35,175 nucleotides of DNA from an uncultured Prochlorococcus sp. GTDB lineage: Bacteria; Cyanobacteriota; Cyanobacteriia; PCC-6307; Cyanobiaceae. Every line of letters begins with the position of its first letter. The stretch's first letter is position 1. Made by a program: the position numbers and the translations under genes. Positions 14,716 through 26,191 of this stretch are shown here, piece by piece. The stretch lies in contig CACNWH010000012.1 in NCBI GenBank assembly GCA_902624105.1, forward strand, positions 1 to 35,175. The letters are read 5' to 3'. The notes beneath the pieces were generated by a model. The model was given only the letters and a program-made list of their open reading frames with translations. It searched no databases and was not told where the DNA came from.

Positions 14716-14854
14716 ACGTGATTTAATCTGTTGGTTTAGTAGAACCAATCTTTAACTTAGCTTCAAAAGTTAAATTTATACAAATAATTGTTGTATTAGT
14801 TAGCTTTTGCTAATTTAAGAATTCTATCAGAATCTTATTTTTTATTCCTATTTA

Positions 14855-24856: not shown

Positions 24857-25270
24857 CTACCCAAAAGGCACTGTATTATTAAAAGGTGCCACAAAAAGTA
24901 TTTCCATAAATATACCTGTCGCCGCAAAAGGTAAAACCCAAATACCTATAAACCGATGATCAAAAAATCTTAGTTGATCTTTTCCTTGAAAAACTAACTT
25001 TAATGAAGTAAATAATGTTTCAGGTTGCTTATATGATGGCCCATTAGTTGTAGGAGTATAAGGTTTAACAAACACAGAAGAATTTGCGATTTTATTTAAC
25101 TTCTTTATTAAATAGATAGGAATAACCCAGAGAGCAAAAAATCTACCACCTAGCCATTGTCGAGCATTTGGTAAGGCATACTGCTTAATAGATTTATTTT
25201 CCTGAAAACCAGATTCAATGATCTTATAAATATTTTCTATTTCAGAAGGTTTTTTTAAATCTTTAGTCAT
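24857..25270 (-). CDS. 137-residue protein with a duplicated RFxxxWVxP segment
   Basis: The start is ATG 25270. A polar N-terminal region (1-40) leads to two hydrophobic segments that begin alike: RFFALWVIP at 43-51 and RFIGIWVLP at 106-114. They are joined by a soluble loop with YTPTTNGPSY. Each may be a membrane hairpin or helix, giving a small two-pass protein with internal duplication. I cannot assign a family; the aromatic-rich helices recall photosynthetic antenna or assembly proteins, which is only an impression. It stands next to the RNA-like repeat array. Confidence 0.75.
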   Translation of the reverse strand: MTKDLKKPSEIENIYKIIESGFQENKSIKQYALPNARQWLGGRFFALWVIPIYLIKKLNKIANSSVFVKPYTPTTNGPSYKQPETLFTSLKLVFQGKDQLRFFDHRFIGIWVLPFAATGIFMEILFVAPFNNTVPFG

Positions 25271-25363
25271 TTTTATCTCTATTTTGTATATTTTAATATC
25301 ATTATTGTTTTATTTGAAAAAATAATTATCAATAAATAATTAATTTAATAATTGGTAATAAAT

Positions 25364-25461
25364 AATCCTAACTACTAAAATAACAAAAAGCAGTTAGGAT
25401 TATAACGTTAGGCAGGTTATCAAAGACCGTAAATTCGGTAGCAGATTTGCCCAAGATCCAC
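25364..25461 (+). ncRNA. Structured RNA candidate, copy 1
   Basis: A perfect 10-bp hairpin (AATCCTAACT at 25364, AGTTAGGATT at 25392, 18-base loop) is followed by AGGCAGG, TTATCAAAG, a 4-bp hairpin ACCG-TAAATT-CGGT (25426-25439) and GCAGATTTGCCC. TGCC at 25448 could pair with GGCA at 25411. The strand is inferred from the T run after copy 2. The second hairpin is the least regular of the three copies. Confidence 0.4.
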
Positions 25462-25577
25462 AATAATTTTATAAACATTTTTTTGAGATGCGCAAAGTAA
25501 AAAAGATACAAATAAAAAGATAATTTAAATCAATATATTTAATTAATGGTTTTTTCTATTCCTCTGAAATAATTAAA

Positions 25578-25692
25578 CCTCACTCCTTTATTCTTATTTA
25601 AAAGAATTAAGTAGTGAGGAATGGGAGGTTATTCTTAAAACCGTAGTTATCAAAGCTGACGGCGAAGTAGATTTCCCAACATCTACTTTTTT
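25578..25692 (+). ncRNA. Structured RNA candidate, copy 2
   Basis: The first hairpin pairs CCTCACT (25578-25584) with AGTGAGG (25613-25619), with a further ATTCTT/AAGAAT stem inside. GGGAGG and TTATCAAAG follow, then a perfect 8-bp hairpin (AAGTAGAT 25665-25672, ATCTACTT 25681-25688) whose loop is TTCCCAAC. A T run overlaps its 3' arm and ends the unit at 25692, so this hairpin could be a terminator. GGGA at 25623 can pair with TCCC in the loop. Confidence 0.45.
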
Positions 25693-25803
25693 ATATATAT
25701 CTCTGCTTTTTTAACCATGACAAGCAAAATTTATACAATACTAAGTTTGTTTACTAAATATTTATATGAATGAAAAGATAAAACAAGTAAGAAGAATGTT
25801 TAA

Positions 25804-25903
25804 AACCCCCTTTATCTATGCCAAGTAAAGGAGGTTAGAGGGATATTCTCATTAATATTCACAAAGTTTGGATTTGTGAGTTGTAGATTTCCCAGTTTCT
25901 ACA
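25804..25903 (+). ncRNA. Structured RNA candidate, copy 3
   Basis: The first hairpin joins AACCCCCTTTA (25804-25814) with TAAAGGAGGTT (25826-25836), 10 pairs and one mismatch. A second hairpin is TCACAAA/TTTGTGA (25859-25879). The third is TGTAGA/TCTACA (25882-25903) with loop TTTCCCAGTT. GGGA at 25840 can pair with TCCC in that loop, at the same distance as in copy 2. Confidence 0.45.
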
Positions 25904-26011
25904 TACTTATATATATGGTGAATATTAAAAAATTTCAAGCAAAACTTATACATGTATTAAATACAGTTTTTAATTTATTTAGTAACCTATTATCGAAAAC
26001 GAAGTATAAGA

Positions 26012-26191
26012 TTAATTGCTTGATGCTGCATAAGCAGGAATTAACATACCTCCGTCTTGGTCATCATTATCATCATCAATACCTCCACCGAGTAAAAGCT
26101 CGAATATCACTAATATACCTAGAGGATAAAAACACCAAAGTATAGCTAAAAGTGGGGAAATAGAGTAAGAACTATCTATAAAATTTTCCAT
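26012..26191 (-). CDS. 59-residue membrane protein with DDQDGG tail
   Basis: ATG 26191 to TAA. Residues about 12-34 form a membrane helix (PLLAILWCFYPLGILVIFEL), then a glycine hinge LLGGG and an acidic cluster IDDDNDDQDGGMLIP (38-52), with a short end. The acidic motif is shared with the 44-residue protein at 27298, which supports this frame over the opposite-strand ORF covering the same DNA. The aspartates could bind divalent cations. Function unknown. Confidence 0.7.
   Translation of the reverse strand: MENFIDSSYSISPLLAILWCFYPLGILVIFELLLGGGIDDDNDDQDGGMLIPAYAASSN

Follow-up and report, generated by a model that had tools for sequence, protein, structure and literature searches.

What is encoded by the three tandem repeats that occupy an intergenic region of an uncultured Prochlorococcus sp., and on which strand? 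Prochlorococcus is the most abundant photosynthetic bacterium of the ocean, and the stretch analyzed here, contig CACNWH010000012.1, positions 1 to 35,175 (hereafter, the window), carries the repeats at positions 25352-25953, between two minus-strand open reading frames (ORFs) for proteins of 137 aa (24857-25270) and 59 aa (26012-26191). The initial annotation had proposed a repeated structured RNA with possible pseudoknot covariation, encoded on the plus strand. We found that the region consists of three tandem paralogous structured RNA units (a, b and c) in which the pseudoknot indeed covaries, whereas the plus-strand assignment was not supported. The reading that we favor, with modest confidence, is that this is an array of three paralogous minus-strand sRNA genes, each organized as promoter, pseudoknot and terminator and each transcribed separately.

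Direct reading of the sequence bore out the reported three tandem copies with a period of ~220 nt, the hairpins denoted P1 starting 216 and 226 nt apart, and a repeat search of the window recovered parts of the same pattern. Read on the minus strand, each unit contains a hairpin, P4, the loop of which base-pairs with a strand further downstream to form an H-type pseudoknot around an inner hairpin (P3), and then a long hairpin (P1). The P1 stems, which had been described as differing among the copies and still pairing, do so in all three cases quoted. The near-invariant loop strings (GATTTGCC, GATTTCCC and GATTTCCC in the three copies) were likewise found as described, as were the complementary tetranucleotides GGCA/TGCC in copy 1 and GGGA/TCCC in copies 2 and 3. 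In the latter two copies, the loop string sits inside the hairpins AAGTAGAT/ATCTACTT and TGTAGA/TCTACA; however, such a hairpin is not restricted to these copies, because copy 1 has one too, with G.U pairs on the minus strand. The three-copy folding pattern exceeds chance on either strand, with z-scores against shuffles of -3.93, -4.49 and -2.08 for the copies as plus-strand RNA and of -4.44, -3.12 and -2.15 for slightly different stretches as minus-strand RNA. A protein-coding repeat, which the initial annotation had named as grounds for abandoning the RNA, was rejected because no reading frame persists from copy to copy and from genome to genome. A stop-free frame spanning the whole unit was found on the minus strand in 38 of 67 a copies, 1 of 63 b copies and none of 8 c copies, and on the plus strand in 15, 2 and 1 of these copies, respectively. 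For unit a, the distance classes modulo 3 numbered 33/11/8 and 44/7/1, and ATG was present in 36 of the 52 distinct parsed copies.

To assess the distribution of the family, we combined DNA searches with covariance models. The DNA search recovered relatives in 7 of 60 genomes, including that of the window. Model R1, based on 6 sequences of copy a and containing P1, P3 and P4 but not the pseudoknot, matched 129 of 266 Prochlorococcus genomes and 56 of the 87 that are at least 90% complete. Model R3, built from 15 b and 8 c sequences, again without the pseudoknot, matched 128 of the 266 genomes (again 56 of the 87). Across the order, R3 matched 84 of 399 genomes, all of them in a single genus of 44, Prochlorococcus. 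Furthermore, R1, which contains copy a only, matched copy b elsewhere (E 5.6e-5 to 0.1), and R3 matched copy a (E 0.0018-0.0055); thus, copies a, b and c are homologous.

The R1 survey covered 70 sources, the window and 69 loci, and its 141 matches include reverse-strand hits of the self-complementary P1; the 69 copy-a loci were retained, and L051, cut at a contig end, was left out. Copy b was picked in 63 of the 69 loci by a pattern fixing part of P3 and one arm of P4, and copy c in 8 of the 69 by a pattern fixing the P1 loop, so that the invariance of the pattern-fixed stretches in b and c is partly by construction. Two loci, L050 (rearranged) and L052 (P1 only), were dropped from the consensus-folding, wobble and frame tests. 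The latter (G146:C6:23734-23831) is a P1 copy in an unrelated place that lacks the pseudoknot core; it may be left over from recombination or be a terminator put to new use. Most of the matching genomes carry a and b, including those that we take to be MIT9312, AS9601, MIT9215 and MIT9515, and 8 of the 266, that of the window among them, carry a, b and c; R3 found c copies in the same eight genomes as the pattern applied to the 69 loci and in no other. The c-bearing genomes include two that we take to be HNLC1 and HNLC2 (G079 and G081), representatives of the HLIII/HLIV clades of iron-poor waters. Neither R1 nor R3 matched G015, presumably the MED4 genome, and MED4 thus appears to be without the array locus.

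In G096, a complete genome, the set is present twice (L102 and L103, at 1.10 Mb and 1.46 Mb) in opposite orientations, each time with the 137-aa gene, RNAs a and b, a long psbF (see below) and genes for 61/62-aa and 122-aa proteins, which suggests that the set moves as a unit. No tRNA was found in 14 loci or in the window, and a tRNA-borne island was accordingly rejected. A phage origin was rejected as well: neither 50,697 phage records nor viral contigs contained a protein match, three DNA patterns had no match in the viral contigs, and the single match in the phage DNA search, which covers 41 bases (6% of the query) and lies in a faecal phage that carries no annotation, was taken as chance. 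The 59-aa protein encoded next to unit c matches PHROG 7843 (function unassigned, E 1.2e-18) and therefore has phage relatives.

The helices were examined in structure-blind MAFFT alignments of a (n=18), b (n=18), c (n=8) and b+c (n=23), the a and b sequences having been hand-chosen for diversity. All four helices, P1, the pseudoknot (P2), P3 and P4, are supported in each of the four alignments. On the minus strand, 95.5% of the cells of unit a pair (18 sequences), compared with 33.5-51.2% in slid controls, and the covariation score is 0.183 against a shuffle mean of 0.115. For b and c together (26 sequences), 94.7% of the cells pair, compared with 46.6-48.6% in slid controls, the covariation score is 0.305 against a shuffle mean of 0.137, and 11 pairs are changed on both sides. 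Related sequences inflate both the pairing and the covariation counts, and therefore the slid controls carry most weight. Given that the models and patterns used to gather the copies contain P1, P3 and P4 in part, these helices are favored by the search, whereas the pseudoknot is not. The pseudoknot, omitted from every search model, itself covaries: in b and c, one pair is G-C in 20, A-U in 4 and G-U in 2 of 26 sequences, and in a, a single genome has C-G at one pair in place of U-A. As weaker points, 8 of the 18 sequences of a do not form the innermost pair of the pseudoknot, and the outer A-U/U-A pair of b, split across alignment columns, was left out of the counts. Nested folding on the minus strand yielded P4 in 3 of 5 units tried, units a and c of the window showing the pseudoknot strand in its place, and consensus folds were likewise split between P4 and the pseudoknot strand.

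Unit a would span ~149 nt of the minus strand (25352-25500, ends estimated; R1 match at 25359-25477, 110.7 bits). From 5' to 3', it comprises a -10-like box, TATCTT (25503-25508; HL consensus TATATT), within a motif at 25494-25512 (minus); P4 (25441-25461; 97.6% of cells paired in 18 sequences), whose loop carries the first pseudoknot strand (TGCC on the plus strand, 25448-25451); P3 (25426-25439; 95.8% paired, with one pair changed from G-C to C-G in 8 of 18); the second pseudoknot strand (GGCA on the plus strand, 25411-25414; 85.5% paired); and the terminator-like P1 (25362-25403; 97.4% paired, three pairs changed on both sides), which ends in a T-rich tail. The stretch from the box to P1 is conserved in HL genomes.

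Unit b, of ~160 nt (25565-25727, minus strand, ends estimated; R3 match at 25576-25698, 100.3 bits), is preceded by the candidate promoter box TATAAA (25730-25735), inside TTGTATAAATTTTGCTTG at 25721-25738 (minus), the source of the motif pattern. Its P4 (25665-25688; 88.4% paired in 26 b and c sequences) exposes TCCC (plus strand, 25674-25677) to the second pseudoknot strand (GGGA on the plus strand, 25623-25626; 94.2% paired). Three of the 4 pairs of P3 (25641-25662) are changed on both sides, in copies selected with a pattern in which a portion of this helix is fixed, as are four pairs of the terminator-like P1 (25578-25619; 99.6% paired).

Unit c (~149 nt, 25794-25942, minus strand, ends estimated; R3 match at 25804-25914, 99 bits) has the putative box TATAAG (25945-25950), where the b motif matches at 25936-25953 (minus) with 2 mismatches. 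P4 (25882-25903; 97.9% paired, also supported in the b+c alignment) carries TCCC (plus strand, 25890-25893), the second pseudoknot strand is GGGA (plus strand, 25840-25843; 96.9% paired), and 3 of 8 pairs of P3 (25858-25880) are changed on both sides. P1 (25804-25836; 93.2% paired) is again terminator-like and was also obtained when the sequence was folded as minus-strand RNA. All 8 sequences of unit c, selected with a pattern that contained the P1 loop, are identical in this loop, a possible pairing site.

The borders of the units were assessed in 52 HL loci; the 7 loci of the group to which the window belongs were shown apart, and the rest were left out. In the HL loci, conservation begins ~10 nt outside P1 and, past P4, extends with gaps for ~50 nt to AAAGTAAATAATATACA in a or to the TTTTATACA box in b; the conserved flank thus reaches a TATACA box on the plus strand, which is -10-like on the minus strand. 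By contrast, the b-a spacer varies, the unit cores being far more conserved. Conservation bounded at P1 and at the box, together with the variable spacer, points to separate units. On the minus strand, the order in each unit is a -10-like box, a short A/U-rich leader, P4, P3, the pseudoknot strand, P1 and a T-rich tail, and we infer that each unit reads from promoter to terminator on this strand.

The motif defined on the box of b has two further matches in the window, at 14748 (minus) and 31235 (plus), each just upstream of a same-strand ORF. Genome-wide, it has 9 near-matches compared with 6 for a reversed control, and 2 of the 7 matches outside the array precede a long ORF within 150 nt; the motif thus cannot be called a general promoter with any clarity. 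The final T is missing from the boxes of b and c, and no conserved -35 element was found upstream of the units. In a generic scan for promoters and terminators, neither a minus-strand promoter nor a terminator was called at the array; the one plus-strand site that it gave, on the box of b (25711-25739), is within chance numbers. The promoters and terminators are therefore putative, and the promoter reading is weak. Beyond unit c, CTTATAC (25945) is followed ~50-60 nt further on by GTATAAG (~26003), as also in several genomes of the same group; the two may be opposite-facing boxes or an inverted repeat.

The gene directly downstream of unit a encodes a protein of 137 aa with two hydrophobic stretches and, in seven sequences, a net charge of +5 to +9, a predicted small membrane protein. 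Twenty-two homologues align over their length, and the closest of 80 named relatives of the window protein, from assembly AH-321-P05, is 96% identical. The window protein had no match in Pfam (E up to 0.01), NCBIfam (E up to 0.1), PHROG or PADLOC, and no solved structural relative at the limits used; Pfam gave six weak matches for the 22 homologues, the best being BBH37 (E 0.031, in 3 of 22), and the predicted structure (mean pLDDT 54.9) is too low in confidence for a fold search. The RNAs and the gene co-occur: among the 266 genomes, both are present in 126 and neither in 133, while 3 have the RNA only and 4 the gene only. The seven exceptions are accounted for by contig ends (G013, G106, G032 and G177), a decayed gene (G069 and G092) and a partial element elsewhere (G146). 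In G069, presumably MIT9301, a single gap of ~2 kb relative to L056 removes the RNAs, leaving no RNA match, and about half of the 137-aa gene; physical linkage thus explains part of the co-occurrence. The gene is also absent from G015.

This association raises the possibility, which we consider real though on balance unlikely, that the units are tandem attenuators, that is, the 5' leader of the 137-aa gene, in which the pseudoknots would sense a ligand or protein and control P1, much like tandem riboswitches, and all of which would have to be read through for the gene to be expressed. A cis-acting ligand- or protein-binding role, the other option of the initial annotation, is conceivable above all for unit a. 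The units lie on the strand of the gene and directly upstream of it, unit a beginning 28-88 nt before the start codon (L050 left out); in some genomes, the gap is 28-31 nt, which suits a leader. The succession of pseudoknot and terminator-like hairpin resembles the layout of riboswitches, the presence of RNA and gene together in 126 genomes would follow, and separate promoters for the units are weakly supported. Moreover, no conserved gene promoter is visible in HL genomes between P1 of unit a and the start codon. In the window's group, however, the gene may have a promoter of its own in a conserved A/T-rich stretch that immediately precedes it. Each unit also has its own conserved -10-like box at the 5' end, the spacer between b and a varies, and adjacency alone explains co-loss, as in the G069 deletion. 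No antiterminator pairing was noticed on informal inspection. Under the favored reading of separate sRNA genes, transcription would start at the -10-like box of each unit, ~150 nt would fold into the pseudoknot and P1 would terminate the transcript, yielding a discrete sRNA of ~145-160 nt from each unit. The members of such a multi-copy family could act by base pairing through conserved linker or loop stretches, or by protein binding, in a function shared with the downstream membrane protein, and unit a may in addition attenuate the 137-aa gene.

The neighborhood offers a further hint at such a function. In the HLI/HLII loci read (L058, L059, L054, L102 and L103), the RNAs and the 137-aa gene adjoin the gene for a 98-aa long form of PsbF (cytochrome b559 beta), and the shorter core psbF is a separate gene at ~0.29-0.31 Mb; a 61-aa paralogue of the N-terminus of long PsbF adjoins long psbF in the same loci. 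Of the 266 genomes, 122 have both the RNA (R1) and long PsbF and 134 have neither; the RNA occurs alone in 7, of which G083, G150 and G178 are at least 95% complete, and long PsbF alone in 3 (one partial, two incomplete genomes). In HNLC1 and HNLC2, the RNAs and long psbF lie 0.65 and 0.78 Mb apart, and both are kept. One TAA was flagged in the long-PsbF match of HNLC1 and five other genomes, that of the window among them, and G015 and G069 have the core psbF match only. This pattern is suggestive of a tie between the RNA and long PsbF. We offer, as a distinctly doubtful extension, the notion of a class of tandem pseudoknot sensor RNAs, in which two or three serial promoter-pseudoknot-terminator modules would set the level of a small Prochlorococcus-only membrane protein functionally tied to the accessory long PsbF at a non-core locus, with the third module in HNLC-type lineages.

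The strand from which the RNA is made was addressed by the type of wobble change tolerated in the helices. If the RNA were made from the plus strand, tolerated wobble pairs should appear as G.U on that strand; if from the minus strand, they should appear as A.C on the plus strand. Over all distinct sequences (55 of a, 44 of b and 8 of c), A.C was found in 144 cells and 28 pair columns, compared with 9 cells and 5 columns for G.U (sign test over columns, 6.6e-5, columns and sequences not being fully independent). By copy, the ratio of A.C to G.U cells is 122 to 1 in a, 12 to 6 in b and 10 to 2 in c; thus, unit a supplies most of the signal. The RNAalifold energies of the three full sets are also lower on the minus strand (-44.0 vs -35.2, -43.7 vs -41.9 and -46.9 vs -41.3), and P1 is stronger on this strand in the three examples folded, clearly so in a and c. 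The strand tests are not unanimous. A structured RNA on the plus strand, as the initial annotation had it, would draw on the fact that the helices form there too (86.0%, 90.8% and 93.9% of cells in a, b and c) and on two 8-sequence subsets for which RNAalifold slightly prefers that strand (a, -48.7 on minus vs -49.4 on plus; b, -37.8 vs -39.6). The T counts in the 9 nt after P1 on the minus strand and after P4 on the plus strand (a, 5.65/5.74; b, 4.54/6.05; c, 5.25/4.38) do not favor the minus strand in a and b. However, the excess of A.C over G.U and the conserved flank, which lies on the side of a minus-strand promoter and hence on the wrong side for a plus-strand RNA, do not support that reading, which we consider very unlikely; the RNA is probably made from the minus strand.

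A type III toxin-antitoxin-like system, in which the tandem pseudoknot RNAs would guard against the product of the gene past the terminator, is highly improbable. It would share the layout of tandem pseudoknot RNAs, terminator-like hairpin and protein gene, and the RNA and the gene are patchy and jointly distributed. Yet the copies repeat every ~220 nt and each has a terminator-like hairpin of its own, and searches of the window protein against Pfam, NCBIfam and PADLOC gave no ToxN/CptN/TenpN-type endoribonuclease; its two hydrophobic stretches and the lack of a family match at the limits used leave no sign of a ToxN-like RNase. Finally, the notion that three terminators or inverted repeats without any RNA function have persisted by chance in A/T-rich intergenic DNA fits the strength of P1 as a hairpin on its own and the lone P1 of G146. 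It is scarcely credible, however, because four helices, the pseudoknot among them, show compensatory changes in divergent clades and because the unit cores are far more conserved than the b-a spacer in the 52 HL loci.

According to a survey of its sRNAs, Prochlorococcus has few protein regulators, and the MED4 sRNAs include clade-limited and multi-copy kinds, with 9 of 21 located in genomic islands (PMC2518516). The family described here is found in about half of the genus genomes examined, including several cultured strains, whereas the earlier sRNA studies considered worked largely on MED4, which appears to be without the locus. An RNA that accompanies a membrane protein and usually a paralogue of a photosystem II subunit provides a testable handle on regulation in natural high-light populations.

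Regarding known families, Rfam 15 gave no match in the window. On 25300-26000, 8 matches were obtained at E up to 10, each below the gathering score, and on 12 related loci, 3 matches at E up to 1, none of them on the units. Membership in an Rfam family (Yfr families, glutamine riboswitches, 6S and others) was rejected on the gathering score, in agreement with the earlier statement that no known family was recognized. The Yfr13 sRNA (RF02364, 102 bits) was found at L059:821-919 (minus), ~1.1 kb from the array, in a genome that we take to be MIT9515. Identity with Yfr19, suspected from the context and from its MED4 map position, was rejected, G015 having no R1 or R3 match. In the open-licence literature, supplementary tables excepted, no description of the array RNA was found, and it is apparently undescribed so far. 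A study of environmental Prochlorococcus sRNAs could have missed it, because reads were reassigned to NATL2A and MED4 (PMC7368042).

Several known systems resemble the array. The ToxI RNAs of type III toxin-antitoxin systems are tandem pseudoknot RNAs that precede a terminator and a protein gene; the array differs from them in its period, in the terminator-like hairpin of every copy and in the type of protein. The Glutamine-II (Downstream-peptide) riboswitch occurs in cyanobacteria; its model matched neither the window stretch (E up to 10) nor the 12 related loci (E up to 1). It, too, is a pseudoknot RNA (PMC6698751). Yfr103 likewise has several paralogues per genome, a conserved structure and a picocyanobacterial distribution; however, it is 290-328 nt long and is reported from Synechococcus and from Prochlorococcus SS120, NATL1A, NATL2A, MIT9303 and MIT9313 (PMC5069720), whereas R3 places the array RNA in 1 of 44 genera, so that the two are set apart by description. 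The array units have no Rfam match, although Rfam includes at least one Yfr family (Yfr13), and the family has no R1 or R3 match in G015, the presumed MED4 genome, whereas Yfr2-Yfr5, Yfr10/12/18 and Yfr11/Yfr16 were mapped in MED4; nevertheless, these Prochlorococcus RNAs are likewise clade-limited, multi-copy structured sRNAs (PMC2518516).
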